Source of the DNA: Akkermansia muciniphila
GTDB taxonomy: Bacteria; Verrucomicrobiota; Verrucomicrobiia; Verrucomicrobiales; Akkermansiaceae
Direction of reading: 5' to 3'
DNA length: 54,080 nucleotides
Assembly: GCA_945883695.1 (NCBI GenBank)
Contig: CAMCYK010000010.1
Coordinates: 1 to 54,080, forward strand
Shown here: in pieces, positions 23,851-51,595 of the stretch
Layout: every line of letters begins with the position of its first letter
Numbering within the stretch: the stretch's first letter is position 1
Notes under the pieces: model-generated
Seen by the model: the letters and a program-made list of their open reading frames with translations, nothing else
Databases searched by the model: none
Told to the model about the DNA's origin: nothing
Made by a program: the position numbers and the translations under genes

Positions 23851-24885
23851 ATGCTTCCTTTGAAGGCGGGATTGGTCCTGCGATGCTTGTTCGGAATTGC
23901 CATGATCCTCGCGGTGCCGCCGGCCTTGGCCGGCAGCGGTCACCACCGGGTGCAGGACATTCCCTTGAAGGCCGGCTGGAACGCGGTTTTTCTCGAAGTC
24001 GAGCCTTCCGATCCGGCACCGGCGAAAGTCTTCGCGGGCTTGCCGGTGGACAAGGTGGCCACGCTGTTCCAGAGCCCGGTTACCAATCAATTCGTCACCG
24101 ACCCGGGGGTCGAACTGTTCAAGGGACAGGGCTGGGGCGTCTGGTACGCGCCTGGCACCCCGGAGGCATTCCTCAAATCGCTGGATGCCATCAACGGCAA
24201 CCGCGCCTACCTCGTTCACGCCAAGTCAGCCTGCCAATGGCGTGCAGCGGGCGACGCGCTGCCGCCGGCGGTCGAGTGGCGGGCCGGCGCTTATAATTTT
24301 GTGGGATTCCCGGTGAGTCCGACCGGCGGCCCGACATTCAGCCAGTTTTTCGCGGGTTCGAAAGCCCACAAGGACCAGGCGATTTACCGGCTGGTCGACG
24401 GCCGTTGGAAGAAGGTGCTGCAAGCGTCCGCGGAAGCGATGAGATCGGGCGAGGCATTCTGGGCCTACTGCAAGGGGCCATCGGATTACCAAGGCCCGGT
24501 CCGGATCGAAACGGATACCCGCAACGGCTTGATCCTCGGCGCGAAGGGCAGCCGGCTGGTGATTCGCAACGAAAGCCCTCATCCCCTCACTCCGGAAGTC
24601 CATCATCTTGCCGGCGACGGGCCGGCCCTGCCGCTTTCGATCATGATCCGCAGCTTCGGCGATCGCGCCGCTCCGATCCGCTCGGTGCCCGCGGAAATGC
24701 CGGCCGGCCCTTGGCAGCAGCCCCTGCCGCCCTTGGAGCTCGGCGGCTCGATGGCCGTGCCCTTCGAGTGCCGGGCCGCCGCGATGAGCCGGCCGCGCCA
24801 GACCTCCCTGCTGAAAATCACCACCGATCTGGGAACCGAAACCTGGGTTCCGGTGGTCGGATTCCGCGATGACCTCGCGAAGTGA
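23851..24885 (+). CDS. Secreted beta-rich protein, first gene of giant-protein cluster
   Basis: A 344-residue protein with a signal peptide cleaved after ALA (27). The mature N-terminus (VQDIPLKAGWNAVFLEVEPSDPAPAKVFAG) has the LxxGWNxVxLxVxP look of a block I recall from uncharacterised secreted proteins in planctomycetes and verrucomicrobia. The rest is beta-rich, with a second related phrase (WRAGAYNFVGFPVSP) near residue 148, suggesting an internal duplication. There are no enzyme motifs. It is followed 51 bp later by the 860-residue gene; an AT-rich promoter region precedes it. It may be a small structural or adaptor part of the assembly made by the cluster. Function unknown. Confidence 0.78.
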   Translation: MLPLKAGLVLRCLFGIAMILAVPPALAGSGHHRVQDIPLKAGWNAVFLEVEPSDPAPAKVFAGLPVDKVATLFQSPVTNQFVTDPGVELFKGQGWGVWYAPGTPEAFLKSLDAINGNRAYLVHAKSACQWRAAGDALPPAVEWRAGAYNFVGFPVSPTGGPTFSQFFAGSKAHKDQAIYRLVDGRWKKVLQASAEAMRSGEAFWAYCKGPSDYQGPVRIETDTRNGLILGAKGSRLVIRNESPHPLTPEVHHLAGDGPALPLSIMIRSFGDRAAPIRSVPAEMPAGPWQQPLPPLELGGSMAVPFECRAAAMSRPRQTSLLKITTDLGTETWVPVVGFRDDLAK

Positions 24886-24936
24886 CCCGCCGTGCTGCCC
24901 GACCATCGCCCGCCCGCATCCCTTCTTTTCCCGCGC

Positions 24937-27519
24937 ATGAAATCCTCCGCTTTCGCCCTTCCGTCGCTACTGCTGGCGATCACCGCTTCCACCGCGCCGC
25001 TGTCCGCGCAATCGAATCCCTACCGCGGCTTGTGGGTGGGCGAAGTGGTGCTCGGCGCGGTGAATGAAACGACGGTCGCGCTCGACGAGGACAATGTCCC
25101 GCGCGCTTCCGACCCCAATCTCCCGACCCCGACCTCGGACGCGGCGAACTTGCGCCTGATCCTCCATGTGGATGCCAGCGGCCGGACCACCTTGCTCAAG
25201 CAGGTGGCCTTGCTCGCGCGGAAGGCAGGGCTGCAGGAAAGCGAAAACGACATGGCGCTGGTCACCGACGAGCGGCTCTACGGGGCCTTTCCGCCCCAGC
25301 CGGCCCAGCGGATTTCCAGCGTGGTTTTCGACTACGGCGACGCCAAGGCGACGGCGGCGATGGACACCCTGGTCGAAGCCGTCGCGGCGGAAGCGGCCCG
25401 GGCGGCGCAAGTCGGCAGTCCCAGCGCCGCCAGCGTGAGTGCGCTGGCCCAGGCCAAGGGCGTGGCCGCGGTGAACTCCTCGGACGCCAGCGCGGCCTTC
25501 AACACCTTCATCAACAGCAGTGCGGTCAACCCGACCGCGGTGAAAGCCATCGCCAACGGCGGCTCCGATGCCGCCGCCCGCGCGGCCGCGACAAGCCTCA
25601 GGAACAGTTCCTTCTTCGGCGACACCCGCGGGATCGAGATGCTCGACGCGATCGCCGCGGCCATCGCGTCGCTGCCCGCCGGCGCGACCCAGGCCCAACG
25701 CGAACAGCTCGCCATCAACACGGCCGCCGCCTTCGCCGAAACCGATCTGGGTTACGACCGCTTCCTTGCCGGCGAAGTGTTCGGCGACCTGATCTCGCTG
25801 TCGTCGGAAGCCGCCGCCACCGCCGCCCAGGGAGTGCCGCTCAATTCGATTTCCGCCTTCCAAGCGTCCGCCAGCGGACCGCTGGTCACCGTGCTCGCGC
25901 CGGCCCACGCGCTGGCAACCAACGACGAGATCGCGATCCAAGGGGCCGCCCTGGCGGCTTACAACGGCCTGCACAAGATCGTGCGGATCGATGACGGGGC
26001 TTTCCAGCTCCAGGCGAAGCATGTCGCGGGCGGGGCGATCGCCGGCTACGCCGCGCAAACCGGGCTCGGCCCGCTGACCATCACCTCGCCCGGCCACGGG
26101 CTCGGCAGCAATGATTTCGTGACGCTCCGGGACTCGCTCCCCGCCTACAACGGCCGCCACCTCGTGACGGTGCTCGACGCGGACCGCTTCACGATCGACC
26201 TGCCTTTCGCCACGGATCCCGCCGAGCGCGGCGTGTGGTTTGCCCGCTCCGGCGCGATCGCCGGCTACGAGGGAACCGGCGATGGCGGGGCGGGGATCCA
26301 GATCACCGCGCCGGGCCACGGCCTGAACAACGGCCAGAAAATCGAGATCCGCGGCGCGGGCGCGCCTTCCTACAACGGGCTCAAAACCATTACCCGCATC
26401 AACGCGGACGCCTTCACGATCGCCCAGGCTTTCGGTGGAAATCCGGTGGTCAAAGGGACCTGGGACCTGCCGGTGCCGGTCAGCGCGTTCGCCGGCCCGG
26501 CGAACGTCCCGAGCGTGGTCACCGCGACCGCCCACGGTCTTTCCGATGGCGACCGGGTGGTGATCTCCGGATCCGGCCACGTTCCCTACAACGGCACCTT
26601 TGAAATCACGGTGGTCGATGCCGATCGTTTCGCGTTGCCGGTGGATTTCGCGGCCGCCGGCGGGAACCCGGCGGTCAAGGGCAACTGGCAACCGGCGGCC
26701 GGCGGCCAATGGCGCAAGGCCGGCCCGGTCCGCGCTGCCCTCGACGCCCTCGCCAAGGTGGACGAGGCGCGCACCGCGGCGCTGGGGCTGAGCCCGTCGG
26801 TATACGACGACAGCCGCGCGCCGGATGCCGTCGAGGTGGTGCTCGACGCGATCGTCGAGACCGCCGCGACCTCCAGCACCTCGCTCGCCGCCCAGATCGC
26901 GGTCCTTGCCGCCGAGTCCGGCCGCGAAGCGCTGCGTTCCTCGGTGATCCGCTACCCGCGGCCTTCCACGGTTCCGTCCACCGACTACGATGCCTTCGTC
27001 CGCTCCTCCGGCTTCAGCGGCGCGCCGAAGCTGGCGGCCGACGCGGCCGCCGAAGCCGCACTCAAGGAAAAGGCCGACCTCCTCGCGACGTCCGATTCGA
27101 TCAAGGACAAGGCGCTCCAGGCGGCGATCAACGTCCTCAACCCGGTCTTTGCCACCGCGGCGCGCTCGCTGCTGACCGAGTTGCCGATGAGCGGGAGCTT
27201 CGGTCCCGGCGGATCGGGTCTCACCACCGAGATCATGCTGCCGGCCAACCATCCGACCAATCCCTTCCGCCACCGCCGCCATCCCGACCACACCGTCGGT
27301 TTCAACATCACCCGCGAGATCTCGCTCGGTTTCGATGCCGCCGACCTCCAGCCGCTCGGCGGCGCGAACTACGGCATCGACCGTATTTCCGGCAGCTACG
27401 ACGAGGAAATCTTCGGCCTCCACAAGCCGCTCGGCCCGCAGCAAGACATCGGCCTCAAGGTCCGCGGCACCTTCCTTCTCAACCGCATCAGCCTGATCGA
27501 CACCCTCAACGGCCGCTGA
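24937..27519 (+). CDS. Secreted protein with four FCCH-like repeats
   Basis: An 860-residue exported protein (signal peptide ends near LSAQ, 25). Three parts are visible. Residues 25-110 carry NPYRGLWVGEVVLGAV and LRLILHVDASGRTTLLKQVAL, an N-terminal block seen, as I recall, in other uncharacterised secreted proteins. Residues 110-310 are helical and Ala-rich. Residues 314-593 are four tandem copies of a 70-residue module (pattern HGLxxxDxVxIxG...YNGxxxITxxDADxF, often ending GxW). The C-terminal part includes NPFRHRRHPDH (775-785), a His/Arg-rich block that could bind metal. The module recurs in two later cluster genes. The start at 24937 is set by the signal peptide. Function unknown. Confidence 0.8.
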   Translation: MKSSAFALPSLLLAITASTAPLSAQSNPYRGLWVGEVVLGAVNETTVALDEDNVPRASDPNLPTPTSDAANLRLILHVDASGRTTLLKQVALLARKAGLQESENDMALVTDERLYGAFPPQPAQRISSVVFDYGDAKATAAMDTLVEAVAAEAARAAQVGSPSAASVSALAQAKGVAAVNSSDASAAFNTFINSSAVNPTAVKAIANGGSDAAARAAATSLRNSSFFGDTRGIEMLDAIAAAIASLPAGATQAQREQLAINTAAAFAETDLGYDRFLAGEVFGDLISLSSEAAATAAQGVPLNSISAFQASASGPLVTVLAPAHALATNDEIAIQGAALAAYNGLHKIVRIDDGAFQLQAKHVAGGAIAGYAAQTGLGPLTITSPGHGLGSNDFVTLRDSLPAYNGRHLVTVLDADRFTIDLPFATDPAERGVWFARSGAIAGYEGTGDGGAGIQITAPGHGLNNGQKIEIRGAGAPSYNGLKTITRINADAFTIAQAFGGNPVVKGTWDLPVPVSAFAGPANVPSVVTATAHGLSDGDRVVISGSGHVPYNGTFEITVVDADRFALPVDFAAAGGNPAVKGNWQPAAGGQWRKAGPVRAALDALAKVDEARTAALGLSPSVYDDSRAPDAVEVVLDAIVETAATSSTSLAAQIAVLAAESGREALRSSVIRYPRPSTVPSTDYDAFVRSSGFSGAPKLAADAAAEAALKEKADLLATSDSIKDKALQAAINVLNPVFATAARSLLTELPMSGSFGPGGSGLTTEIMLPANHPTNPFRHRRHPDHTVGFNITREISLGFDAADLQPLGGANYGIDRISGSYDEEIFGLHKPLGPQQDIGLKVRGTFLLNRISLIDTLNGR
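25876..26715 (+). repeat. Four tandem copies of the HGL-YNG-DADxF module (coding)
   Basis: In-frame tandem modules start near 25876, 26062, 26280 and 26500. Conserved landmarks in each are a PGHGL/TAHGL-like opening, an xxIxG strand, YNG, a VxxxDADxF or INADAF strand, and, in three, a GxW ending. Similar modules lie at 28815-29025, 44024-44250, 44527-44743 and 45676-45893 in other genes. The motif resembles what automated annotation often calls an E1 FCCH-like domain in phage tail and surface proteins; this is from memory. Confidence 0.8.
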
Positions 27520-27556
27520 TCCGCGCCGCTCCGCTCCCACGACGCTCCCTCTTCCC

Positions 27557-30500
27557 ATGAACCCTTCCCCGAGCTTCCGCTCCCGCTTCGCCGCTCTCCT
27601 GGTGGCGCTGTTCGCCGCCACCCCGGCCTTCGCCAATGTCTCCGATCTCCTCTTCACCGTGGCGATCGACGGCAACACGAACACGCCGACCTTCACCGTG
27701 ACGAACAACTCGCCGAACTTGGAGATCACCGGCTTCAACTTCACCATCGGCAACACCGCCTACGAATTCGATGGCCGCGATGTCACGCTCACCGCGCCGC
27801 CCGGGGTCGGGATCGCCATCGTCACCCCGCTCGGCGATGTGAGAACCAACAACTTCCTGGTAGGCCTGAGCGGCTTCGGTCCAGGTGAGTCCGTCAAGAT
27901 CCGCATCGACGTCGATACCGACGGCCAGAATGACGGAGTCGGCAACCCCTCGGTGTTCTTCAACAACGGGGCAGCCCCCAATTCCGTCGCCACGGTGTAT
28001 GCCGGACCCGCGAGCGCCTCGATCGTGCTGGAGGACAACGCCCCGCAACCCTACGTCTTTCGCGGCCCGAACCGGATCCTGCGGGTGAGCAGCAAGACCG
28101 AAACGCAGACCGGCGACGAAGGCGAACTGGTCCGCGGCATCACCCTGCTCCGCAACGGCACGCCGGTGAACCTGCCCCTGCTCGGCAAAGACGACGCCGA
28201 TTTCGAAATCCTGGTGGCCCATGGCGACCGGATCCAGATCAAAGCGCCGCAAGAGGTGTACAAGGACATCAATTCCAACTATATCACCGGCAGCGATGGC
28301 GGCGACACCAGCCAGATCAGCGAGGACGCGGAGGAACGCTTCGTCGCGATCGGGATGTCGGTCAACGACATCGCGCAAACCGCCGACCCCACGAACTACA
28401 ACTTCGAGATCACCCAGAACACCGAGGTCGACGTGAAGTGGCAGCACTTCTACGCGCTCACCATCTCCCACGACTTCAGCAAGACCCGCAGCCAGGAAGT
28501 CCTCGCCGGCACCCCGTGGGCCGGTCCGCTGGAGTCGAACGCCGCCGGCAATCCGAACCCTCCGGTCAGCAAGCAGTGGGTCCGCCGCGGCACCGAACCG
28601 GTGGTCCAGGTCGACGGCCAGTCGATCGACAACTTCAGCCATCCCGGCCTCGACCTCCGCTACGTGGTGAAAGGTTTCCGCGCCTACGGGCCGCCGAACA
28701 AGGACGTCGGACTGACCGCCAACGCCGCGCGGATCACCGGCGGCATTGACATCCGGAATCCCGAGACCGGCTCCGTCTCTACCTACACCGCCGATCCCAG
28801 TCCGCTGAGAAGCGGGTGGACGTCGATCACCACGGTCGGGACCACCGGCACCAGGCCGCACGGATTGCCCGTTGGCAGCTCGCCCGAGATCACGATCAGC
28901 GGCAGCAGCCATGCTCCGTTCAACAAGCCACACGTCGCGTTCGTCGTCGACGCGAACACCTTTTCCATCCCGGTGGCCAACCCCGGCACCGCGCCCACCG
29001 CGAAGGGGCAATGGCTGAACACCACCTACGTGCGCTTCTTTTCCTTCGACACCGTCGAGCCGCGGCAGCAGGTGAAACCGAACTTCAACATGTACGGCCC
29101 CGGCGGCATCAAATTTGTCTGGCAGATCCAGTACGGGGTGCGGGTCAACGCCGACGACGCCGACCGGATCCAGCTCGCCCGGGTGTACGAGGTGGTCAAC
29201 GGGGCGGATGTCGACCGCACCGTCCAGGACGGCGTCTCGTGGTTCGACCCCGGCGCGCAAGTCAAGGTCGTCGGCGGCATCCAGGAGCCGGGGCCGGAAG
29301 GACAAACCCTCACCGGCTGGGTCAACGGCGACGGCTATTATTTCGCGACCCTCGGCCAGATCGATCCGGCCACCGGGCAGCCGACGACCGGGGCACCGGC
29401 GGTGGTCAACGGGAGTCCGGTCGCGACTTGGCTGCCGAGTGGTCCTTCGGGCAGCCGCGGTTACCTGATTCCCAACCTGCAGCGGCCGGTGAGGGCGGTC
29501 TGGCGCTATGGCGCGGACGCGATCCTGATCAACGTGACGATCGGCAAGCATCTCTTCGAGGACTACCCGCAGTATGCCGCGATGTTCGTCCGGCCGCCCG
29601 AGCCGGTCTCCGACGCCCGCCCGGACGCGATCGCCAACAGCGCCGACGGCACCGCTCCGGTGGCCGGCCTGATGGCCGAGTGGGATCCGGTCGCCGGCCG
29701 CCTGTTCCCGACCCTTCCCGGACGCTTCACGGTCCCGTGGAAACCGGGCACCGAAAGCAACCTGGCGGTCGAGGTCCGGGTCACCGCCACCTTGCCCTTC
29801 GATGCCGCGCGCCAGATCCGCGGCCACTACCCGCACATCCACAACACCCCGGCGGTGGCGCTGGATCCGGATCCCGACGACGAGTTCAGTTTCAAGTCGA
29901 TCAAGTACACCAACGCCGGCGGCACGGTCGACGGATCGAAGCGTTTCACCACGACCCGCGCCGGTCTTTCGGTGCTCCTGTTCTCGCAGATCCAGCGGGT
30001 CGGCCGCGGCCAGCCGCGCGAGTTCCTGCAAGTCCGCGTGGTCGATACCCGGGAGTGGGACGATGTCCTGCCCGGCCTGCCGACCAACGTGCCGGTGGGC
30101 ACCAAGATCCTCGACCCCGCGGCGGACGCGGCGGGCCTCGGCACCGGTTTCCTGTTCGGTCCCACCGGCCGCGCCCGCTACAATCCCCTCATCTACAACG
30201 TGGCCAAGCTCGAGGGCCTGGCGGCACGGGACATCTACGACATGGCCTTGCTGCGCGCCGACAGCTCGTCGCTGGTGGTCGTGAACAAGAACGCGCTGCC
30301 CGGCCCGGTCATCCCGGTCAACGAGCACCCCGGGGCGGACAAATCCGAGCTGCCGGTGATCGTTTGGTACGACGATCCTCGTAGGAACGACACCCTGATG
30401 TGGCCGAACGCCGTGCGGAACTACAACCCCGCCTGGCCGGCCGCCAACAGCGTGCCGCAGATCGTGATCGCCAGCCAGTTCGGCAGCGAGGGCAAGGGGC

Positions 30501-33500
30501 CGACCGGCCTCGACCAGATCGTCGCCCCGGCGGTCGGTGCCACCCCGCAGGCGACCACCTACGATCCCTCGCGGCTGCAAGCGGTGCAGATTTACCAGCA
30601 GCCGGATCCCGACGCGCCGGGCTACAACCCGAACGAGGAGCACGCGCTGGTCGCCCCCTCGCTGCGTTTCGCCGCCGTCTCGCCGCGCCCGCCCGCGATC
30701 TACGCGCTGCGCACCGGCGACTTGAACAACGTCAACCGGACGATCACCAGCGGTTCCAACGGCTACACCTCGCATCCCTTCGTGCTGGCGCAGTTTTTCG
30801 ATGTCGCCGCCGACGAGATGAAGATGAGGATCTACTCGGTGAAGAAGGAAAGCGCGACCAGCGACACGCCGCTCTACCGCTTCGCCAACAACTTCACCGC
30901 GACGACCACCAGCCTGAGTACCCAGCCGTTCGTCAGGATGCGGGCGGGCGAGCCGGTCATCCCGTTCTACCCGCTCGGAGTGGCCATCGGCGCCAGCCCG
31001 GCGCCGCAGACCTTCGGCAACAATTTCTTCCCCCAGGAAACCTACTGGGAGGATTGGCGGGGTTCCTACTGGTCGATCTCCGGCGGCGACAGGGCCTGGT
31101 TCAACGTCTCCTTCTACTACCCGCTCGCCCCGGACTTCTGGTGGCCGGCGGGCCTGGCGACGCCGCCGGTGAAAGTCGTCAAGAGCGGGGCGACCTATAC
31201 CGCGACCTACGACAGTTCCCGTAATCCGAAGGTCCCGCTCGTTGGCGATTCGGTCGCCTTCCTTCCATCGGAGATCCGCCTCTCGCCAAGCGCGCAGAAC
31301 CTTCCTTCCCATCTACCGACCCGGGTGATTTTCAAGTCGGAGTGGCCGGTGAATCCCGCCGTGCTGAAGGCCGGCGAAACGCTGACCTTCTCAGGCGGTG
31401 AATTCCGCGCCGACAAGCCGACCCAGACAATCGTCCGCAACGGGGTGGCGGAAACCGTGGAGACGCCTGGCCTGCCGCAGTTGACCGCCTTCGCCTCGGC
31501 GGAGGTGGTGTTCGATTCGCTGAATGCCGAGGCCGTGCCCGAGCAGTTGAAGTCCCGCTGGACCGCGCGGGTCGTCCAGGCGCTCGACAAGCGCAACGCC
31601 GCGCTGGCGACCACCAGCTTCCCGCCGGAACTCCAGCCCGCCAGCGGCCGGACCACGGTGAAGCAGGGCAAGTATGTCTTCAACGAACTGCCGGCCTCGC
31701 TCCAGCGGCGGCTGCGCTATGACCCGCTCGCGGTGGTCAACGTGACCAGCGCCGGCGTGACCACCCAGGTGGCCGGCGCGCTGGAGTTCAGCGGGCTGCT
31801 CAACGACAAGGACATCGGCGATCCCACCCTGACCGCCTCGCCGCCGGCGGTCTACGTGCTGGAACCCAACATCCTGACCGACGCGGAACGGGACGCGATC
31901 CTCGCACTGGTCGACACCGGTTCGCCGGTCCGCGCCGCCTGGGTCACCGCGGTGACCGCCCTCTACAACGTCACCCGCAACCCGGAGACCGTGCCCGGCA
32001 ACGCCGGCGAATACCTCACCGGCCTGATGCGGCTGCCGCTGCTCGGACCGGACGGCGCGATCGTCAAGGACCAGCTCGGCAACGTCCGGTATGCCACGCC
32101 CACCACCCCGGCGCCGATGCGTGCCTACGGTCCGGGCCTCGCGCTGGTCCCGAACGCCGGCTTCCTCGATCCGCGCGGAACCTTGGCCGACGGCTCCAAC
32201 TATCCCGACGAAAGCTGGGTCACGGTGGTGGAGAACAACGACCCCTCGCTCGGCGGCTCGCCGATCACCCCGCACATCATCAAGGTGGACCGCCGCCAGC
32301 GCTACCGCGGATCGATCCAGACGATGCTTTCCGACAACGTTTTCGACGAGAACATCGAGCTGCGCTCCACCGGCGACTTCGGTGCCAACGCCAAGGACCT
32401 GGTCTTCGAGTGGTGGTACCGCCCCGACGACGGCAGCCTCAACGTCCCGCCGCCCGACCTGATTCCGGCCGGCAAGGTCAACCCGTGGAAGTTGTTCCCG
32501 GATCCCAGCGGCAGCGCGGGGCTCGGCCGCTACCAGATGACCCTCAAGGGCAATCCGAACGCGCCCGAAGCGCTGCTTGCCGACACCTTCTGGTTCCTCC
32601 GCTACCGCCACAAGAACGACAACGCCAGCGGCACCAACTGGAAACTCCAGCAGCCGAACGGCAGCCAGGGCGTGAACTTCACCTGGGCCGGCGCGGGGAA
32701 TTCCCAGCCCTTCGTCGATGCCGACCTCGACGGCTTCAAGGACTTCCGCGCCCAGCTCGCCCAGGGCTGGATCAAGCGCGTGCTCGACGCGGTGAACCCG
32801 TACGAGGCGCGGATCCGTGACTTCGAGGGCGACAGCCCGTCCACCCTGGCCAGCATGATCTCGCAGTTCGGCGCCCGCTATGAAGGCCCGGTCGCGCTCA
32901 ACCCGTCGAAGAACGTCATCGAGAACGTCGGACTGATCGAACTCTACGAGACCGTCCTCAACCGCGGCCGCAGCCTCAGCATCGACCTTTCGCGGCCGGT
33001 CTCCACGCCGGCGATTTCGAACGCCCTGCAGCTCGCCTCCACCCGGATCTCGGACTTCTACATGCTGCTCGGCAACGAGGCCTACGGCGACGCGGTGGAT
33101 CCGACCATCGGCCACGGCAGCGACAGCGTCGAATACGGCAGCCTCGCGACCTCCGTCCACTCGTTCCAGAACCAGATGTCCTCGCTGATCGAGGAAGAGC
33201 TGGGCCTCCTGCGCGGCGTCGACGACTTCTTCGCGCGGCCGGTCTACAACCGCCTGTTCTGGAATTTCACCAAGGGGGAAGGGGAGGCCGCCTACGCGAC
33301 CAACTACAACCTGACCGACATCAACGCGGACGGCTTCATTGACGAGGACGACGCGATGATCCAGTTCCCGCAAGGCCATGGCGATGCCTGGGGCCATTAC
33401 CTGACCGCGGTGCGCAACCAGTACGAACTGCTGCGCCATCCGTTCTTCAACTGGGTGTCCCGTTCGGAGAGCTACAACTTGCAGGATATCGTCATCACCG

Positions 33501-36391: not shown

Positions 36392-36431
36392 GCCGGTAAC
36401 CGCCGCAACTTCACCTGAAACTCCGATTTCC

Positions 36432-39062: not shown

Positions 39063-39072
39063 TCCCCGCCTG

Positions 39073-40065
39073 ATGTCCCGTCGCCTGTTCATGTTGTTCT
39101 GCCTGCTCGCTGCCGTCGGCCTGGCGAGCCAGTGCAAGAAGGCGCCCACCGCCACCACCGCGCCTGCCCCGGACGCGCTGGCGGTGGTCGCGGGACAGGC
39201 GATCACCAAGGCGGACCTGCTGGCCGAGGCGCAATGGCGGCAATCGAAGCGCCAGCCGGTCCCCGCGCCGGCGGAACTGCTGCAGGAAATGGTCAACCGC
39301 CTCGCGCTGGTCGAGCGCGCGCGGCAGGCCGGCCTGGCCGACGAACCCGCGACCAAGCGGCGGCTCGAGAGCGTGCTCATCGCCCGCCTCCGCGAACAAC
39401 AACTCGACGCCGAACTCGCGAAGATCGCGATCTCCGAAGAGGAGCTGGCGGCCGCCTATCAGGACCGCCTCGCCGAGTTCAGCCAGGCCGCGCTCGACCG
39501 CTTCGCGATGCTTTTCCAGGAGGTCGATGCCAAGGCCTCGGAAGCCCGCCGCGCGGAAGCGCGGCAACGCCTTGAAGGCGGTCTCGCCCAAGCGGCGGCC
39601 GCCCCGGCAGCCGGAGGCCGCGGCCCCGCGGCGTCGGGTTTCGGCGCGGTGGCGATCGAATTCTCCGACGACCAGATCAGCCGTCACCGCGGTGGCGACA
39701 TCGGATGGCTGGCGGAGGGCATGGAATCCGCGCGGGTTCCCGCCGAAGTCCTCGCGGCCGGCCGGCCGCTCGAGAAGGGCGCGCGCAGCGGCGTGATCGA
39801 GACCGCCCGCGGCTACTACGCCATCATGAAAACCGACTCGCGGCCCGGCGGTGCCCGGCCGCTGGAGCAGGTCGCCGGCGACTTGAAGCAGAAGCTGCTG
39901 CAGGAAAAGCGGCGCGCGATGGAAGAGCGCTTCCTCGCCGAGGCGATCGGCAGCGCCGCCGCCACCCTCGACACCGCGGCCGCGAGCCAGGTCGAGCTCC
40001 CCGTTTCTCCGCCGGCTCCACCTTCCGAAGACGCTCCTCCGTCCTTCCCGGCCGCCTCCCGCTGA
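39073..40065 (+). CDS. SurA/PpiC-type peptidyl-prolyl isomerase
   Basis: A 330-residue periplasmic foldase. The N-terminal signal is followed by Cys21 (LASQC), a possible but atypical lipobox because Gln precedes Cys. Residues 35-140 form the helical SurA_N-like chaperone region (VVAGQAITKADLLAEAQWR, EEELAAAYQDR). Residues 150-250 form the parvulin domain with GGDIGWLAEG (from 207), SGVIETARGYYAIMK and a helical end. A Pro/Ala-rich tail follows. It is the fifth gene of the cluster, 10 bp after the RTX/Calx-beta gene and 23 bp before the 3832-residue gene. Its position suggests a dedicated foldase for the giant beta-rich exports. Confidence 0.87.
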   Translation: MSRRLFMLFCLLAAVGLASQCKKAPTATTAPAPDALAVVAGQAITKADLLAEAQWRQSKRQPVPAPAELLQEMVNRLALVERARQAGLADEPATKRRLESVLIARLREQQLDAELAKIAISEEELAAAYQDRLAEFSQAALDRFAMLFQEVDAKASEARRAEARQRLEGGLAQAAAAPAAGGRGPAASGFGAVAIEFSDDQISRHRGGDIGWLAEGMESARVPAEVLAAGRPLEKGARSGVIETARGYYAIMKTDSRPGGARPLEQVAGDLKQKLLQEKRRAMEERFLAEAIGSAAATLDTAAASQVELPVSPPAPPSEDAPPSFPAASR

Positions 40066-40088
40066 ACTTCCCCATTTCCCGCCCACTC

Positions 40089-43000: not shown

Positions 43001-46000
43001 GGTCAAGGCGCACCGCCTGCTGGCCGGCAGCCCGGCGACCGACGCGGCCGTGTCCGGCAAGGCGGCGGTCGACCAGCGCGGCGTGGTCCGCCTATCGCCG
43101 CCGGACAGCGGCGCGCTCGGCACCGACCGTCCCGGCCGGCTGGTGATCCACGAGATCCGCACCGCGGCCCCGCAGTTCATCGAATTGTTCAACCCGCGGG
43201 ACCAGGCCACGCTCCAGCTCAACGGCTGCGAGTTGTGGATCGACGGGGAACGGCTCCACACCTTCGGGTCCGCGGACAAGATCCTTTCCGGTTCCGGCCT
43301 GATCGTCGCCAGCGGGGCCTTGGCCACCCTTGACAGCTCGGTCCCGGTGATCGTCCCGCTCGCCCTGAACCCGCGCGGCCGGATCGAGATCCGCCGTCCG
43401 TCGGGCATTACCCTGACCAGCCCGCAACCGCCTTCCGAGCAGACCCTGTTGGCCGGTGTGTCCTATGTCTCGGTGTTCGCCCAAGCCTTCACCGATCCCG
43501 CAACGACGCCGGCGGTGACCGTCGGCTACGGCAACGATTCGATCACCCTCGCGCCCCAGCTCGGCGGCACCGCCTTCGTCCCCCACCGCCTGGTGCTGCC
43601 TCCGCCTGCCGGCGTCAATCCGGTCGGGACCGGTCCGGCCGCTTCTCCGGGTGGCTACTCCCTCACCACGCCGTTCGGTCTGCCCAACGCCTTCCCCTTC
43701 GCCGCGCTGGACCGCTTCGAGGTCACCGAGGACGAACTGGCCACCCTGAACGTGCTGGCGAACGACCTCGACCCGGACGGCGCGGACCGGGTCTTCCTGG
43801 TGGACCTCAATCCGGCGCTCTCCGGGACGCCTCCCGCTTCCAACAAGTCGTCGATCCTCACCAACGCCGGGGCTGCTGTCTCGATGACGCCGGCCACGGC
43901 ACCCTTGCGCGGCACCGCGCTGGGCTTCGATCCCCGCACCGCCTTCAACCACCTGCCGGCCGGGGCCCGCGTCACCGACACCTTCGCCTATTCGGTCATC
44001 GATGTGGGCAGCGGAGCGGTTGGCGGCTACGCCGACGGCCTCGCGGGGACCACCCTGGTCACCGCCTTGTCCCACCGCCTGAGCTCCGGCGAAACGGTGG
44101 TCATTTCCGGTTCCGCCACCGCCGCCTACAATGTCAGCCGCGCCGTCACGGTGGTCGATGCCGACACCTTCCGCATTCCGGTGACTTTCGCCGGCAATCC
44201 CGGGCCGCTCGAACGGGGAAGCTGGCAGACGGCCGTGCCACGCTCGCCCTCCGCCCGCAGCGAGGCGCTGGTCGAAGTCACCGTGCTCGGCCGCAACGAT
44301 CCGCCGACCCCGGCGGCCAACACGGTGGCGGTCAACGAGGACACCGTCCTGCGGATCTTCGGGGATCCCGTGGCGGCGGCTCCGGTCCTGGACACCGATG
44401 GCCTCTATCCCGTGCCGCGGACTTTCAATGGTACCGGCCTGCTCGCGAACGACAGCGACCCCGACACCAATGACCAGCCCTTCACCAAGCTGCGAGTCGT
44501 CGGCGTCTGCCAGGCCCGCGCGATCGGCGGCTTCAGCGGCAGCCCCGGCCAATCCCCGGTCACCGTGACCAGCACGGCCCACGGCTTGGAAGACGGCACC
44601 ACCGTGCTGGTCTCCGGCTACGGCGGGCACCCCTCTTACAACGGCTACCACCTGGCCACGGTCACCGGCGCGAACACCTTCACCCTGCCGCTCGCCTACT
44701 TCGACAACGCCGCGACCAAGGGCCTCTGGACGGTCCTCAACGACAGCAACCGGCTCGCCACCACCAGCTTCCACGGCGCGGCGGTCAGCTTGGAAATCCG
44801 CGCGAACCGGGCCCAGACCAACGTGGTCTTCAACCCCCGTCCCTCGACCCTCCTCAACGGCCTCGCCAACGGCGAGTCCGCGAACGACACCTTCCACTAC
44901 GCGGTCGAGGACCAGGCCGGCGCGGTCTCGCTGGCACCGGTCACGGTGAACGTCGGCGGCGTGAACGACGCGCCGGTGCCATCCGACAATCCGCCCGGCC
45001 TCGCCGTCCTGACGCCGCTGCTGCCCCCGGGCCAGAGCTTGGCCCAGTTCACCGCCGCGTCGGAGGTCCTCTACATGCTGCCTTCCGGCGGCTCCCCCGG
45101 CACCGTCAATGCCGCCCTCCGCCCCCCCGGTGGCGGACCGGACGACGTGGTCGTCGTCGCCGGCATCGACTGGACCCACGAGGACGCCCCGCTCGCCCTC
45201 GCCAGCGCCGGCCTGCTCGCCAACGACCAGGATGTCGACCGCAGCGACCTGCTCCGCTTTGAAATCGGCGCCGGCCAGAATCTCAGCCGCGAAGGCGCGG
45301 CGATCAGCCTGGGTGCCGGCGGCTCGCTGCTGAACTACAACCCGACCGCCGCCCCGAAACTGCAGGCGCTCGCGTTCAAGGAGCGGGTGATCGATACCTT
45401 CGTCGTGACCGTCTTCGACGGCATCGCGCGGGTCAACACGACGATCGCCGTTCTGGTCGAAGGCCGCAACGACCAGCCGATCGCCTCGAACACGGGCCTG
45501 ACCACCCCCGAGAAGACATTCCTCGAGGTCAAGCCGCCGGGCCTCCTGCTCAGCGGCCTGGAGATCGACCAGAACACCCGCTTGCCGGACAACCGCAAGT
45601 TCTTGCTCCCGACCCGGGACTTCGCCACCACCGTTTTCGGCGCGAAGGTGAATGTCCTGCTCGAAGCCCGCGAAGGCGTCGTCAACGATTTCGCCGCCGG
45701 CGCGCCGGGCACGACGGTCGTCCTCTCGCCAGGACACGGCTTGCAGACCGGGCAAGAAGTCGTGCTGCCCGCCAGCGGACCGCTCACCGGCCAATACGTG
45801 CTGACCCGCATCGACGCCGACCGTTTCTCCGTTCCGGTCGCCTACGACGCCGCGTTCTCCTCCGTCGGCGGCATCTGGCAGGTGCTCGCCAGCACCCTCC
45901 AGTATGATCCCACCGCGTCCGTCTTCCCCGGCCCGACCGGTGGTCCGGCCTTCACCCTGCAAGGACTCGGCCAGGGTCAGAGTTATGTGGACACTTTCAC

Positions 46001-49000
46001 CTACACCTTGCTCGACGGCAGCTACCTCTTCGCCAACGACGACATCTATCGCGTCGAGGTCGACCGCGGCGAGATCGAGCTCCGCGTGCTCGACAACGAC
46101 ACCAATCTCGACGGCGTGGCGGTCGGCCGCCGCATCATCGCCGTCGGCCCGCCGAGCGGCGGCGGCAGCGTGGCGCTGAACGGCGACGAATCGATCCTCT
46201 ACACGCCGGAGACCTCCTTTGTCGGCGACGAGGTCTTCACCTACACGATCGAAGACGACCTCGGGAACCGCGACACCGCCCTGGTGACGGCGCGCGTCAC
46301 GGTCGACCGCCTCAACGGCAACCTGCGGGCGAATGCCGACCGCTTCACCGTGGCCGCCGGCCAGGGACCGCTGCTCGACGTGCTCGCCAACGACAGCATC
46401 ATCCCCGCGACCGGTGCCCCGCTGGCGCTGGCCGGGATCTCGACGGCTCCGGACCAAGGAGGGACGGCGGTCATTGAAAACGGGCGGATCCGCTACACGC
46501 CTTCCGCCGCCGCGGTGGTGTTCCCGTACACCGAGAATTTCGCCTACACCATGTCGGGCGGAGGGACGGCGACCGCGTCGGCCGTCGTCACCGTGGTGGT
46601 CGTGAACCGCGCCAACACCCTCAACGTCCGCGCCGACAGCTTCGGCGTCCCGGCCGGCAGCAGCGAGGTCACGCTGAACGTGCTGGAGAACGACAACATC
46701 CTGCCGGGCACCGGCGAGGACCTGGTGATCACGGCCGTGGGCACCCCGCTCCATGGTACGGTAACCATCGTGGATGGGGTCGCGCTCGCCTACTCCCCGG
46801 CGGCCGCCTTCCTGGGCACCGACACCTTCTCCTACACCGTGGGCGACGGCTTCGGTGGCACCGGGGTCGCACAGGTCACGGTGAAAGTCGGATATCTCAC
46901 GACCAACACCGACATCTTCAGCGTCCGCTTCGACGATCCCGGAAAGACGGTTGACGACGGCTTCACCACGCTCGACGTGCTGGCCAACGACAACGTGCTG
47001 CAAGGCGGCGCCGGCGCGGTGACCCTCACCGCCGTGACGCCGCTGTCGCCCGCGCTCGGCCAGATGAGCGTGGCTCCCGACGGGAAGTCGCTCCGCTTCG
47101 ACCCGGCGGTCGGCGCGACCGGCCAACTGGATTTCACCTACACCATCACCGACGTCGGCGGCCGCAGCGCCACCGGGACGGTCACCGTGGTGGTCATCGC
47201 CAGCGGGATCCGCGCCAGCAGCGATTTCTTCACCGTCCAGACCGACAGCCAGAGCAACGAGCTGGGCGTGCTGTCGAACGACCTGCGCATCTCCGACCTG
47301 CCCGGCCAGTTGTCCGTGACCTCGATCGGCATCGGCGTCGACGGGCCGGACCAAGGCGGCTCGGTGGAAATCAGCGAGGACTTCAAGAAACTGGTCTACA
47401 CCCCGGCTCCCGGCTTCCGCGGCACCGAGTCGTTCACCTACACGGTGACCGATGGCGACAGCACCGACACGGCCCGCGTGTCGGTCCGCTCGACCATCGG
47501 CGAGATGGTCGCCGGCGAGGACGAGTTCTTCGTTTACCGCGGCAGCGATGACAACCGCCTGGCGGTGCTCGGCAACGACCGGATCATTCCGGATGGCGGC
47601 CAGTTGCTGGTCATCACGGCCATCAGCAACGATCCGGGCAATCCGTCGAACCCGCTCAACCGGGGCAGCCTCGCGATCATCGAGGACGGCGCGGCGCTGA
47701 GCTACACCCCGTCCCCCGCCAACACGGTCTTCCCGTATGTCGAGACCTTCACCTACGAGATTTCCTCCGGCGGCACCGCGCGCGCCGCGGGTGTGATCCG
47801 GATCGAGGTGCTGGACCGGATCGGCGCCCGCAATCTGGAGACCAACCACGATGTCTTCGCGGTGCGCAGCGATTCCCCCGGCACCGTGCTGCCGGTCCTC
47901 GCCAACGACAGCGTCCTGCCCGCCAGCGCCGCGGATTGGATCATCACGGAGGTCTCGGTGCCGACTTCGAACGTCTGCTCGCCCTTCCTGACCGCCGATT
48001 TCCTCGCTCCGCGCGCGCTCGCCACGACCCTGGCCGCGCAGGGAGGGCCGCTAGCCCAGTTCCTCTGGGCACGCTTCACGCCGGCGTCCCGCGCCTTGTT
48101 CGCGAATCCGGCCGCTTCCGAACTGCAACTCCGCGTCGCCCTGGTTTCCGAGTTCAACGGCGTGGTCCGGGCCGGCACCTCGATCCACGATCCCGCGCGA
48201 TTTGCCGGGATCACCCTGCGCGAGGCAACCCAAACGCTGCTCGCCCAAGGCGCGACCGGTGAGCAATTGATCGTCCTCAACCGCCTGCTGCTCGAAGACG
48301 CGTTCCCCGCCGGACTCCGGCAAGCCGCGGGCGGCGGCTCGGTGGCCATCGTCGGCACCGACCTGATCTACGTGCCCCAGCCCGGCTATGTCGGCAGCGT
48401 GCGCTTCACCTATCGCGTGTCCGACCGCCTCGGTGGCACCGGCTTCGGCGAGGTCACGGTCAAGGTCGGCGACGTGAGCGTCAGCGACGATGTCTTCACG
48501 GTGCTCGCCGGTGGCGGCCCGGTGGCGCTCGATGTCACCGCGAACGACGGCATCCTCCGTACTTCGTTCCCGGCGGCCCAGCAGGCGGCCCAGGCCGACT
48601 TCACCCTGACGGCGTTGAAAGCGATCACGATCGTTCCGCCCGCCGCCGGCAGCGCGGTGGTGGCCGGCGAGGTGGTGAGCTTCACCCCGGCGGCCGGCTT
48701 CCAGGGCAAGGCCACCCTGACCTACTGGGTCGAGGACGACGGGGGCTGCACCTTCCCCGGCACCGCGGTGATTTCCGTGATGCCACCCGGCGGCGACCGC
48801 GACACCGCCGTGGCCTCGATCACCGTCACCGGCATCAACGACCCGCCGCAACTGCTGGGGGTCGGGCCGACCGCGACCTCCGACACCAACCCGCTGCAAC
48901 CTTTCGCCAACGCGACGGTCGTCGAGTTCGATGAACAACGCCAGCAGCTCGTCACGCTGACGATCACCTATCCGGCCGGCCAGGGCGTGCTCGGCGGCGG

Positions 49001-51587
49001 CTTCACCGTGCTCTCGCCCGGCGTGTTGCGGTTCCAAGGCACCGCCGCGCAGGTCACCGCCGCGCTGCGGGCGCTGGTCTTCACCCCGGTCCCCAACCGG
49101 ATCCCGATCGGCCAAACCGAGAACACCGCCTTCACGCTGAGCCTGGACGACGGCTTCGTGGCGTCGCCGGTGATCATCGCGCCGGCCGTCACCACGGTGA
49201 CTCCGGTCAACGACCTGCCGGTCATCACCGGCACCGTGGCCGCGCAGAAACTCTATCAGTTCTCCTCGCTGCGGCCTTTCGCCGGGGTGAATATCACCGA
49301 CATCGATAACCTCGGTGCTCAGCCGCAGACCTTCGAGGTGCGGATCGACAACGCGATCAAAGGCGGGTTCTCGAACCTCGGCGGCTTCGTCCAGCAGCCG
49401 GCCGGCAGCGGCATCTACCTCTTCACCGGCGCCCCGGCCGCGGCTTCCACCGCCCTCCGCGGCCTGCTCTTCACGCCGTCTCCAGGCAACCGGGTGACGC
49501 CCGTCTCGCCGGAGGTCGCGGGCTTCACCATCACGATCACCGACGGCTTCGGCCCGCCGGTGGTGGATGCCGTGACCAGCGTGCAAATCCTTCATGGAGA
49601 AGTGGACCGCCTGCTTTCGCTCGGCACCACCGGTCTCGATGTCAGCCAGATCGCGGCCGCCTTCGGCACGGCGGTCGCCATCAGCGGCGATACCCTGGTC
49701 GTCGGCTCGCCCTTGCGCGACCTGCCGGCGGTCGATGCCGGCCGCGTGTTCGTTTACGAACGGAATGCCGGCTTCGGCGCTCCGTGGGGCCAGGTCGCGC
49801 AGGTCGCCGGATCGGACACGGTGGCGGGCGACCGCTTCGGTGAGTCGGTCTCGATCGACGGCAACTTCATGGTCGTCGGCGCGCCCGGTGCCGACGCGGC
49901 CGCCAGCAACGCGGGGGCCGCCTACGTGTTCCAGCGGAACCCCGGCAACCCCAACGCCTGGACCCAGGTCGCGAAGCTGCTGCCCCCGCTCACCAACGGT
50001 GCCGGCAACGACGCTTTCGGCACGGCGGTGGCCATCCAGGGCAACACCATCCTGGCCGGCGCTCCCAACGCGAATCTCCCCGGCGCGCCGCGTTCCGGCC
50101 GGGTCTTCGCCTACCGCTCCGCCGCCGGTGCCTGGTCCCACGTCCAGACCCTGGTGGCCGCCGACAACCGCACCACCGGGATCGCCGGCGACAACGAGGA
50201 CTTCGGATTCTCGCTCGCCTTCGACGGCAACACCGCGGTGATCGGTTCCCACGGTGCCAACCTCGGCGGCCAAACCAGCCAGTGGAACTACGGCGCGGCC
50301 TACATCTTCACCCGCGGCGGCAGCGAGCTGCCCTGGGCCGAAATCAAGCGGCTCGACGAGTTTGCCGATCCCACCGCCACCTCGAACTCCGGCTTCGGCT
50401 ACGCGGTGGACATTTCCGGCGACCGGATCGTCGTCGGCGTCCACTCCGGCAACTCTCCTTTCGGCGTGTTCAAGCCCGGTGGCGCGCGGATCTACGAGCG
50501 CGATTTCAACGGCACGAACCAGTGGGGCGAGGTCGAACGGATCTCCCCGGCGGACGGGATTCCCTCGGACTATTTCGCCACCTCGGTGGCGATCAGCGGC
50601 GACCTCGTGCTGATCGGTTCACCGGGTCCCGGCCAGGCATCGACGGTGGTCCGCGGCTACATGGAAGTCCATCGCCGGGCTTCCTCCGCCCCGGTCTGGA
50701 GCCTGATCGACCGCCTGCCGCCGGGTGCCGACACCGCATTCGATCGCTTCGGCCAGGCCGTGGCCATCGACGGCTTCACGGGGGTCTCCGGCGCGCCGGG
50801 CGACAGCGTGAACCTCCTCGGGGCCACCACCGCGGGCAGCGCCCGGGTTTACCAGTTCCAATACGACCTCGGCCCGCGCCTCGCGCTGCCGGTTCCCGAC
50901 CAACTCGCCCGGCAGGACACGCCCTTCCAGTTCGCGGTGAATCCGGCGACCTTCAACGACCCGATCTATCCGGGTCCGCTGACCCTCTCGGTCGCGCTGT
51001 CGAACGGCAGTCCCTTGCCCGCCGGTGCCTGGCTGACCTTCAATCCGGCGACGGCGACCTTCGCGGGAACCCCGGTCGCGGCGAACCGCGGCGATTACAT
51101 GCTGGTCTTGACCGCCACCAACCCGCTGGGCAGCAAGAGGGTCTCGAATCCTTTCCTGATCAGCGTCAGCGGCGGTGGCCTCGACTCCGCCTACGCCGCC
51201 TGGGCCGCCGGCCAATTCACCCCGGCGGAGCTCGCCGATCCGGCCTTGGAAGCCAGCGTCTGGGGGATGAACGCGAATCCCGAGGGGGACTCCCAATCGA
51301 ACCTGCTCGAGATGCTGTTCGGCCTGAATCCCAAGCTGAGCGATCAAGCGGACCTCGTGTTCACCCGGCTCAGCAGCACCCTTTCGACCCTGAATTTCCC
51401 CCGCTCCACGGCGTTCCCGGCGGACGAGGCGGAGGTCGAATGGTCCACCGATTTGTTGACCTGGTCCACCACCGGGGTCGGGCTGACCCCCGCGGCGGCG
51501 GTCGGCGGCATCGAACGGGTCACCGCCGTCATCACCTCGCCCGTCCCGCGGACCCGGCTCTTCGTCCGCATCGTGGCCGGCGAGTGA
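40089..51587 (+). CDS. Giant secreted multidomain surface protein, 3832 residues
   Basis: Signal peptide ends GSAAAA (about 22). The order is: cadherin/Ig-like beta repeats (about 25-650); a right-handed beta-helix region (about 653-910; DNDVIVFALP, then GGAIAV, GGAVDV, GGAVSL, GGGGIY turns); a lamin-tail-like domain (about 1017-1110; IHEIRTAAPQFIELFNP); a long array of cadherin-like/tandem repeats (about 1209-2914) with eleven LxVLxND-type motifs (LNVLANDLD, LDVLANDNV and similar) and three FCCH-like modules (about 1312, 1480 and 1863); more Ig-like repeats; FG-GAP beta-propeller repeats (about 3190-3590; VVGAPGAD, FGESVSIDG); a putative Ig domain; and a C-terminal EVEWSTDLLTWSTTG module shared with the 876-residue protein. 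It is probably a cell-surface adhesin or matrix protein. The ATG at 40089 was chosen for the signal peptide. Confidence 0.88.
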   Translation: MEFPSRLLPLIFGLILAGSAAAAPTLTNITTISGPDVQEDAAIPISYDRLAAAANESGDTTSFRRKTLFAGTLTKNGENVPLNGTLGVGETWIWTPPANQNGNNFVAFSVVAFAAGEESASGEIVRFDVTAVPDAPVLGGAILGTLATPLTDVGTDSADPSYLIFGNLTISDADSDNQSVVVTISKEADDYGSFELPGANVTDSVDQTSRIHTLSFRSPANAQTALRLGKYTVNRNRVPVALRDFAIEVKVIDTTLLQDTESSTVHVRSVNDAPVVTATITPAAVPDTASVAPFQLTLTDPDVGETFEVTLAETSATPRGTLSPANFSVTGDAAAVAAGVGGVSYLPAQQSNNVTATFRHSIVQIHPSGVREDAVTADRNLSIQFINDATELAGLTVALIRTTDDPSEAKVFPFSTVTVNDPDPGQTFTVTIALDDPAKGSFVKGDGTSLGSITGTAAAITALLRDVVFVPAPNRIAVNQSETATITLTIADTSSSPLTRVNNQTQIEVTAVNGAPRVLWTLASDDRFPTSDEPAQIDPTPFPLPFAPVEFKDDSELTVTITIDDPDKGVLGTVAGSGFQPTSAGSGVYVFSGDEDEATTAIQGLKFIVNPDFIFPPDLPGRTDFTIKAEDAALNRTVRVLPIVLVSESRSFMVTQLIDDESVVGSLRNAIAAAADNDVIVFALPSYPATIRLTEGPLVLNKHLSFRGPGADKLAISGDSNANLLADAADTRLFEVFTRVRMSGLRLERGYAAAGGAIAVARREPGLRPGELVLEDCTIARCVATQWGGAVDVFEGSLRAERCLFEGNSLLASSGQGGGAVSLFTELPCFFINCTFSGNSQSSPVGLGGGGIYAENHEPSRPFDVTVTHCTFSGNLDASNKGSSIHSNVANTRVRVTNSIFADFTGRNLGVSGAGEILSGGGNLSNDNTATTSIQGGVPQLATLLNNTTGTKPDQRNIDPKLGPLDFVEGRVKAHRLLAGSPATDAAVSGKAAVDQRGVVRLSPPDSGALGTDRPGRLVIHEIRTAAPQFIELFNPRDQATLQLNGCELWIDGERLHTFGSADKILSGSGLIVASGALATLDSSVPVIVPLALNPRGRIEIRRPSGITLTSPQPPSEQTLLAGVSYVSVFAQAFTDPATTPAVTVGYGNDSITLAPQLGGTAFVPHRLVLPPPAGVNPVGTGPAASPGGYSLTTPFGLPNAFPFAALDRFEVTEDELATLNVLANDLDPDGADRVFLVDLNPALSGTPPASNKSSILTNAGAAVSMTPATAPLRGTALGFDPRTAFNHLPAGARVTDTFAYSVIDVGSGAVGGYADGLAGTTLVTALSHRLSSGETVVISGSATAAYNVSRAVTVVDADTFRIPVTFAGNPGPLERGSWQTAVPRSPSARSEALVEVTVLGRNDPPTPAANTVAVNEDTVLRIFGDPVAAAPVLDTDGLYPVPRTFNGTGLLANDSDPDTNDQPFTKLRVVGVCQARAIGGFSGSPGQSPVTVTSTAHGLEDGTTVLVSGYGGHPSYNGYHLATVTGANTFTLPLAYFDNAATKGLWTVLNDSNRLATTSFHGAAVSLEIRANRAQTNVVFNPRPSTLLNGLANGESANDTFHYAVEDQAGAVSLAPVTVNVGGVNDAPVPSDNPPGLAVLTPLLPPGQSLAQFTAASEVLYMLPSGGSPGTVNAALRPPGGGPDDVVVVAGIDWTHEDAPLALASAGLLANDQDVDRSDLLRFEIGAGQNLSREGAAISLGAGGSLLNYNPTAAPKLQALAFKERVIDTFVVTVFDGIARVNTTIAVLVEGRNDQPIASNTGLTTPEKTFLEVKPPGLLLSGLEIDQNTRLPDNRKFLLPTRDFATTVFGAKVNVLLEAREGVVNDFAAGAPGTTVVLSPGHGLQTGQEVVLPASGPLTGQYVLTRIDADRFSVPVAYDAAFSSVGGIWQVLASTLQYDPTASVFPGPTGGPAFTLQGLGQGQSYVDTFTYTLLDGSYLFANDDIYRVEVDRGEIELRVLDNDTNLDGVAVGRRIIAVGPPSGGGSVALNGDESILYTPETSFVGDEVFTYTIEDDLGNRDTALVTARVTVDRLNGNLRANADRFTVAAGQGPLLDVLANDSIIPATGAPLALAGISTAPDQGGTAVIENGRIRYTPSAAAVVFPYTENFAYTMSGGGTATASAVVTVVVVNRANTLNVRADSFGVPAGSSEVTLNVLENDNILPGTGEDLVITAVGTPLHGTVTIVDGVALAYSPAAAFLGTDTFSYTVGDGFGGTGVAQVTVKVGYLTTNTDIFSVRFDDPGKTVDDGFTTLDVLANDNVLQGGAGAVTLTAVTPLSPALGQMSVAPDGKSLRFDPAVGATGQLDFTYTITDVGGRSATGTVTVVVIASGIRASSDFFTVQTDSQSNELGVLSNDLRISDLPGQLSVTSIGIGVDGPDQGGSVEISEDFKKLVYTPAPGFRGTESFTYTVTDGDSTDTARVSVRSTIGEMVAGEDEFFVYRGSDDNRLAVLGNDRIIPDGGQLLVITAISNDPGNPSNPLNRGSLAIIEDGAALSYTPSPANTVFPYVETFTYEISSGGTARAAGVIRIEVLDRIGARNLETNHDVFAVRSDSPGTVLPVLANDSVLPASAADWIITEVSVPTSNVCSPFLTADFLAPRALATTLAAQGGPLAQFLWARFTPASRALFANPAASELQLRVALVSEFNGVVRAGTSIHDPARFAGITLREATQTLLAQGATGEQLIVLNRLLLEDAFPAGLRQAAGGGSVAIVGTDLIYVPQPGYVGSVRFTYRVSDRLGGTGFGEVTVKVGDVSVSDDVFTVLAGGGPVALDVTANDGILRTSFPAAQQAAQADFTLTALKAITIVPPAAGSAVVAGEVVSFTPAAGFQGKATLTYWVEDDGGCTFPGTAVISVMPPGGDRDTAVASITVTGINDPPQLLGVGPTATSDTNPLQPFANATVVEFDEQRQQLVTLTITYPAGQGVLGGGFTVLSPGVLRFQGTAAQVTAALRALVFTPVPNRIPIGQTENTAFTLSLDDGFVASPVIIAPAVTTVTPVNDLPVITGTVAAQKLYQFSSLRPFAGVNITDIDNLGAQPQTFEVRIDNAIKGGFSNLGGFVQQPAGSGIYLFTGAPAAASTALRGLLFTPSPGNRVTPVSPEVAGFTITITDGFGPPVVDAVTSVQILHGEVDRLLSLGTTGLDVSQIAAAFGTAVAISGDTLVVGSPLRDLPAVDAGRVFVYERNAGFGAPWGQVAQVAGSDTVAGDRFGESVSIDGNFMVVGAPGADAAASNAGAAYVFQRNPGNPNAWTQVAKLLPPLTNGAGNDAFGTAVAIQGNTILAGAPNANLPGAPRSGRVFAYRSAAGAWSHVQTLVAADNRTTGIAGDNEDFGFSLAFDGNTAVIGSHGANLGGQTSQWNYGAAYIFTRGGSELPWAEIKRLDEFADPTATSNSGFGYAVDISGDRIVVGVHSGNSPFGVFKPGGARIYERDFNGTNQWGEVERISPADGIPSDYFATSVAISGDLVLIGSPGPGQASTVVRGYMEVHRRASSAPVWSLIDRLPPGADTAFDRFGQAVAIDGFTGVSGAPGDSVNLLGATTAGSARVYQFQYDLGPRLALPVPDQLARQDTPFQFAVNPATFNDPIYPGPLTLSVALSNGSPLPAGAWLTFNPATATFAGTPVAANRGDYMLVLTATNPLGSKRVSNPFLISVSGGGLDSAYAAWAAGQFTPAELADPALEASVWGMNANPEGDSQSNLLEMLFGLNPKLSDQADLVFTRLSSTLSTLNFPRSTAFPADEAEVEWSTDLLTWSTTGVGLTPAAAVGGIERVTAVITSPVPRTRLFVRIVAGE

Positions 51588-51595
51588 ACCGTCCC

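Follow-up and report, generated by a model that had tools for sequence, protein, structure and literature searches.

A conserved gene cluster of Akkermansia muciniphila centred on a giant protein with a predicted Tc-toxin-A-like C-terminus

The locus described here raises the question of what a bacterium assembles from six consecutive genes, two of which encode proteins of 2944 and 3832 residues. It occupies positions 23,851 to 51,587 of a 54,080-bp stretch of DNA from Akkermansia muciniphila (assembly GCA_945883695.1, contig CAMCYK010000010.1), called the window below; the draft genome to which it belongs as contig C10 (G000) amounts to 6.3 Mb. A first-pass annotation made from the letters of the window had described six co-directional genes separated by 51, 37, 40, 10 and 23 bp, and this layout was confirmed, lengths included, with all genes (P0001 to P0006) on the + strand. 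It had further proposed a dedicated operon for one extracellular or surface assembly that includes a foldase, and had assigned no function to it. Our computations support a conserved cluster that probably specifies a single exported assembly, foldase included, and the function can now be narrowed, for P0003, to a putative pore or translocation protein resembling Tc toxin A (TcA). We conclude that the cluster probably encodes an exported assembly built round this giant. Tc toxins are insect-killing complexes in which a needle-like pore injects proteins, and few machines of protein injection are understood as well.

The comparison with TcA concerns the C-terminal 1200 residues of P0003 (2944 aa; 27557..36391), for which a structural model and an alignment of 80 sequences of the family were obtained. 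A conserved, mainly helical core (residues 1745-2224, model positions 1-480; 32789..34228) shows a mean commonest-residue share of 0.65. It is followed, at the position of the TcA linker, by a variable Gly/Ser-rich stretch (model 485-580; 34241..34528) with a predicted local distance difference test score (pLDDT) of 40-71 over most of its length; the linker columns hold 34-107 residues in the 80 sequences, with a share of 0.17. Both model and alignment then delimit a first long helix (model 608-683; 34610..34837) and a second one of 140 residues (model 737-876; 34997..35416), predicted to run antiparallel. The loop joining them (model 684-736; 34838..34996) is a candidate membrane tip, with a P...GLA.D-like motif, pLDDT below 50 over most of it and a best 19-residue hydropathy of 0.5 to 2.2. 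Helix lengths are nearly fixed: columns 608-675 contain 68 residues in every row, columns 741-805 contain 65-66 and columns 806-876 contain 64-71, and the complete helices span 73-76 and 133-141 residues. The protein ends in a predicted β-sandwich (model 924-1197; 35558..36379; share 0.55) that resembles the TcB-binding domain of TcA.

Helical core, variable putative linker, two-helix hairpin and sandwich are thus predicted to succeed one another in the order and fold of TcA proteins such as TcdA1, XptA1/A2 and YenTcA. In the available portions of the published work, TcA is described as a helical domain, a linker, antiparallel pore helices with tip loops and a C-terminal TcB-binding domain (PMC11435725), and its protomer as an extended helix pair widening into a sandwich (PMC6486591). 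For the neuraminidase-like and receptor-binding domains of TcA, the Pfam search gave no match in P0003.

Several observations weigh against membership in the Tc toxins proper. P0003 is not recognisable as TcA by sequence and its partner genes are different: the TcB-binding domain model TcA_TcB_BD (PF18276) was above cut-off in none of 57 and none of 20 genomes (four of its ten sub-threshold matches in the 57 fall in giants of the P0003 family; the 20 gave none), and the N-terminal 1744 residues of P0003 showed no TcA Pfam domain. Open reading frames (ORFs) with at least four YD repeats, the mark of the RHS cocoon formed by TcB and TcC, were absent from the window, from the 553 picked ORFs of 80 loci of the family (flanks of at most about 10 kb) and from the 949 ORFs of 40 stretches. 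TcdB_toxin_midN was missing from the genome of the window and from 53 of the 57 genomes in all; three of the four that have it also encode the giant, on another contig. Moreover, P0003 begins with a signal-like sequence by a simple and lax rule, whereas in the available part of a study of YenTc (PMC10847048) almost every protein in the secreted material that includes YenTc has no established signal, and YenTc itself is freed by cell lysis. The TcC survey in PMC7861908, in its available part, assigns 96.4% to Proteobacteria and 3.2% to Firmicutes. On these grounds, and because the giants look Sec-exported, we term the P0003 family TcA-like rather than classing it with the Tc toxins.

Export of the giants is suggested by the same signal rule, which fires for 46 of 55 members of the family against 62 of 172 other genes from the 80 loci. 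The first-pass annotation had credited all six proteins of the cluster with signal sequences; the rule agrees in six of six cases, with the laxity just quantified. For P0002 and P0006 the signal-like N-termini follow from the chosen start sites, since the frame of P0002 could also open at GTG 24892 (875 aa) and that of P0006 at 39705 (3960 aa, overlapping P0005).

Conservation of the cluster was followed in nine relative regions, of which eight hold full-length P0003 orthologues from the same genus and the ninth (G030) represents a different genus. In nine of nine, each of the six proteins has a homologue and the order is the same, the homologues of P0002 and P0006 being only partial in G030. 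The cluster is also carried by two non-pathogenic organisms in culture, Luteolibacter marinus NBU1238 and Haloferula sp. BvORR071 (L061 and L062). Against two orthologues, dN (non-synonymous divergence) is well below dS (synonymous divergence) for all six genes, with values for P0003 of 0.18 versus 0.73 and 0.20 versus 0.98. Conserved gene order and purifying selection on every gene show that the cluster is maintained beyond chance.

P0003 also matched in 25 of the 57 genomes, many of these matches being paralogues. Among 19 paralogous regions, 14 contain P0001/P0002-like genes, 14 a P0004-like gene and nine a PpiC-like gene, and P0006 had no complete counterpart in any of them, several being truncated by contig or fetch ends. 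It is P0003, not the 3832-residue P0006, that forms the conserved centre of the cassette, and the earlier suggestion of an accessory role for the first five genes, in the service of P0006, is not borne out.

The family is widespread. A scan of genome collections confirmed at least 519 of 570 candidate stretches, from which 80 loci were kept; their records are labelled Verrucomicrobiota, Kiritimatiellae, Lentisphaerae, Deltaproteobacteria, Geobacter and Acidobacteria (a metagenome-assembled genome, MAG), as well as Marinicella, Wenzhouxiangella, Lysobacterales and Catenovulum, and many are MAGs whose taxon labels may be wrong. Among genomes drawn from the phylum, 56 of 387 (38 of 197 genera) encode the giant, at most two candidates per genome being scored. 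The genome of the window has four such giants, the three others lying on contigs C214, C3 and C34 (L039, L040 and L041), with the C214 frame extending to the contig start. In one paralogous giant (L049, contig C185 of G010) a TAA stop interrupts the gene, leaving two frames side by side, and the Catenovulum giant (L110:2171-13447) carries PA14, LamG and GLEYA modules as lectin-like insertions. Short-class cassettes (L057:2677-16554, L060 and L041) have giants of about 2600-2800 aa flanked by 'YQGR' proteins; among those scanned, two contain RCC1 repeats with Peptidase_S74 and two Peptidase_S74 alone.

No name for the family emerged from domain databases. A Pfam and NCBIfam scan of 27 homologues found no family in more than two members, and 78 C-terminal pieces gave 38 scattered families, none of the 25 listed occurring in more than two members. 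A PsbP_2 match in the first-long-helix region of a Marinicella giant was below cut-off (24.9 of 27 bits), and a baseplate gp25 match (PF04965, E 0.2) in P0003 was dismissed as chance. Neither 50,697 phage records nor 72,556 plasmid records contained a match to the C-terminal 1200 aa of P0003, and plasmid carriage was set aside. Sequence-profile searches of the PDB returned mostly designed or coiled-coil helices, with one chance match for the partner family. Among viral proteins, only an uncharacterised one of Mimivirus LCMiAC02 (BFVD A0A481Z1I0, E 4.2e-7) matched the C-terminal model in fold with an E value of at most 0.001. Literature titles and abstract starts yielded no description of the family, preprints and most subscription papers lying outside this search, so that an earlier description is possible; nor is it described in the available portions of PMC9935623, PMC6425310 and PMC10790787.

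If RHS proteins do not accompany the giant, its constant neighbours deserve attention. The conserved upstream partner is represented here by P0001 (344 aa, signal-like N-terminus; 23851..24885), whose 'GWN' domain corresponds to its N-terminal half, and by P0002 (860 aa, signal-like N-terminus; 24937..27519), whose two ends carry the partner domain with the pattern 'LWVG ... HPTNPFRHxxHPDH'. Fusions exist as well, 23 fetched genes encoding the P0001 and P0002 domains as a single protein. The first-pass annotation had set co-occurrence of the 344-, 860- and 2944-residue families as a test beforehand, and co-occurrence was found: among the 57 genomes, that of the window included, the P0001/P0002 family is present in 24 of 24 with the C-terminal family of the giant, and one of the 33 without it (G016) has a P0001/P0002 fragment. 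This count is more independent than those of neighbours in the 80 loci, for which the models were partly built from the same loci. There, with all ORFs considered, 55 of the 56 loci with room for it have an upstream partner that ends no more than 4 kb from the giant; the gap has a median of 12 bp and reaches 3879 bp at most. Of 74 loci, 70 have a P0004-type N-terminal domain that starts no more than 4 kb downstream, the gap having a median of 2 bp and a maximum of 1062 bp. With greedy gene picking the two counts were 49 of 55 and 63 of 75. Both partner types are nearly always adjacent to the giant, and a same-strand peptidyl-prolyl isomerase (PPIase) is found somewhere in 49 of the 80 loci.

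P0001 itself has no Pfam or NCBIfam match, and its fold is suggested by that of a fused relative (L128), predicted to consist entirely of β-structure with Ig/PapD-like sandwiches (pLDDT 87, predicted template modelling score 0.73). Its top Foldseek match is the biofilm scaffold RbmA (E 7.4e-5), beside many other Ig-like proteins and with the VIA rows of the comparison covering mostly residues 220-340; the predicted fold is common and not diagnostic.

P0004 (876 aa, signal-like N-terminus; 36432..39062) combines the conserved N-terminal domain with Cadherin_3, an RTX nonapeptide repeat and Calx-beta. Among 57 proteins of this type, Calx-beta was found in 29, RTX in 26, Cadherin_3 in 26, TSP3 in 12 and a lactonase-type propeller in six. 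Residues 443-507 of P0004 match the type I secretion target domain TIGR03661 (30.7 bits against a cut-off of 17.6); the region is internal, though P0004 also begins signal-like. Two Marinicella proteins (L128:3-2390 and L128:13561-15831), one of P0004 type and the other a DUF11/propeller protein encoded upstream, have a common C-terminal IFxxGFE, possibly a sorting signal.

P0005 (330 aa; 39073..40065) contains a PpiC-type rotamase domain (Rotamase_2, PF13145; E 3.2e-10, 41.3 bits against a cut-off of 27), the only enzyme match above Pfam cut-off among the six proteins, as had been claimed. It has this domain in common with the SurA, PpiC and PrsA foldases; it differs in being encoded inside the cassette and in falling far under the named NCBIfam equivalog cut-offs (best 56.4 of 493 bits). 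None of the Verru_Chthon cassette families of NCBI was among the NCBIfam matches of the six proteins at E 0.1.

P0006 (3832 aa, signal-like N-terminus; 40089..51587) contains Big_9, Cadherin_4/5 and VCBS repeats, a choice-of-anchor Q region, He_PIG and an FG-GAP_2 repeat region (about residues 3226-3600, six stretches, E 3e-56; 49764..50888) that probably forms a β-propeller. Such repeats are those of Tandem-95, VCBS and cadherin-repeat surface proteins, from which P0006 is distinguished by its place in a TcA-like cassette and by the FCCH-like repeats that it has in common with P0002 and P0003. The earlier claim that modules are shared is borne out by these repeats, with four in P0002 (residues 311-366, 376-434, 454-510 and 521-585), one in P0003 (residues 432-486; 28850..29014) and three in P0006.

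A propeller is of interest since TcB attaches to TcA through one, as the available part of PMC9935623 states. A P0006 homologue is present in all nine relative regions and its FG-GAP propeller in eight; RCC1 adjoins some short-class giants (4 of 19 paralogous regions), and the lactonase type lies mostly within P0004-type proteins. FG-GAP, RCC1 or lactonase propeller models matched in 14 of the 80 loci, and we rejected a universal propeller partner as not general. Recurrence of propellers is suggestive only, many loci ending before the expected position. The constant candidates for replacing TcB and TcC are P0001/P0002 and P0004.

On the explanation that we favour, the proteins would leave the cytoplasm through Sec, and P0005 would help the giants fold. 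P0003 would oligomerise, as does TcA, a pentamer that inserts into membranes and translocates; its helix pairs would line a channel, and the hairpin would enter a target membrane with the loop at its tip. P0001/P0002 and P0004 would dock on P0003 in place of TcB and TcC, joined in this lineage by the probable propeller of P0006, and the effect would be either translocation of a cargo or the pore itself. A more tentative proposal, for which the balance falls just short of even, is that the family constitutes a class of its own among TcA-type machines for injection or pore formation. Its members would be exported through Sec and folded by their own PPIase, would have RHS-free partners (an all-β docking protein and Calx-beta/RTX or propeller proteins) instead of TcB and TcC, and would occur across Verrucomicrobiota and several proteobacterial lineages at up to six copies per genome.

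The same C-terminal fold might instead serve a structural apparatus of the surface or matrix, an adhesin or a device for biofilm formation or capture, with the hairpin as a stalk. Partner domains of adhesion and matrix type (cadherin, Calx-beta, RTX, FG-GAP and Big_9) are consistent with this, as are the Ig/PapD-like partner model with RbmA first among its matches and the lack of any toxin model above cut-off in the six proteins (RTX_toxin touches P0004 through its RTX repeats, at 30.6 bits versus 1000). A stalk, however, needs neither near-fixed helix lengths nor a conserved loop motif, and the sandwich has the TcA docking fold, and we regard this explanation as rather unlikely. Somewhat lower still do we place a cargo-free killer used in predation or competition, whose channel alone would permeabilise the target: a TcA-like pore part with no RHS-repeat gene in the surroundings searched would fit it, whereas the conserved sandwich and the retained partners suggest that something binds there.

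It is improbable that the resemblance to TcA arises artificially from modelling a long helical hairpin and that P0003 is an unrelated giant surface protein. Barely to be expected is a role in polysaccharide use, as a giant complex that degrades or binds its substrate. Such roles are discussed for other giant proteins of the Planctomycetes-Verrucomicrobia-Chlamydiae group in the available part of PMC12057145, and the lectin-like modules of the Catenovulum protein, one of three further giants scanned, point the same way; against this, no glycoside hydrolase, lyase or peptidase model was above cut-off in the six proteins.

Control of the cluster was considered from its base composition. A possible promoter region (23731..23850, no strand assigned) precedes the first gene, with 80-bp windows of 29-41% GC compared with 67% for the whole window. 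The claim that AT-rich DNA is confined to this place holds inside the cluster, where 80-bp windows below 45% GC occur only in 23731-23880, at and before the first gene; the rest of the window has four more such places. In nine of nine relative regions an AT-richer stretch lies near the start of the first gene (lowest 60-mer 23-42% GC, against 46-69% for the cluster), a weak sign, since the comparison had no random control. A single promoter is not demonstrated, because a scan of positions 23500-28000 and 36000-52000 gave no sigma-70 consensus site and terminator-like sites in the scanned parts were no commoner than in shuffled sequence.

Upstream of the cluster, positions 17203-19296 hold a gene resembling pyrroloquinoline quinone (PQQ) dehydrogenases whose product includes a cytochrome c domain, and a transposase gene of Y1_Tnp (IS200-like) type follows at 21799-23127. 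Downstream, a PBP1C-like gene with Transglycosylase and Transpeptidase domains (51596-54079) converges on P0006 across a gap of 8 bp.

Overall, the giants form a widespread, probably exported TcA-like family that has no Pfam or NCBIfam name and keeps its own set of partners. If the favoured explanation is true, a TcA-like pore with a signal peptide and fixed non-RHS partners exists in many environmental lineages, and this pore would be more widespread and versatile than the toxins. Hundreds of giant proteins that belong to no Pfam or NCBIfam family would then gain a testable function.
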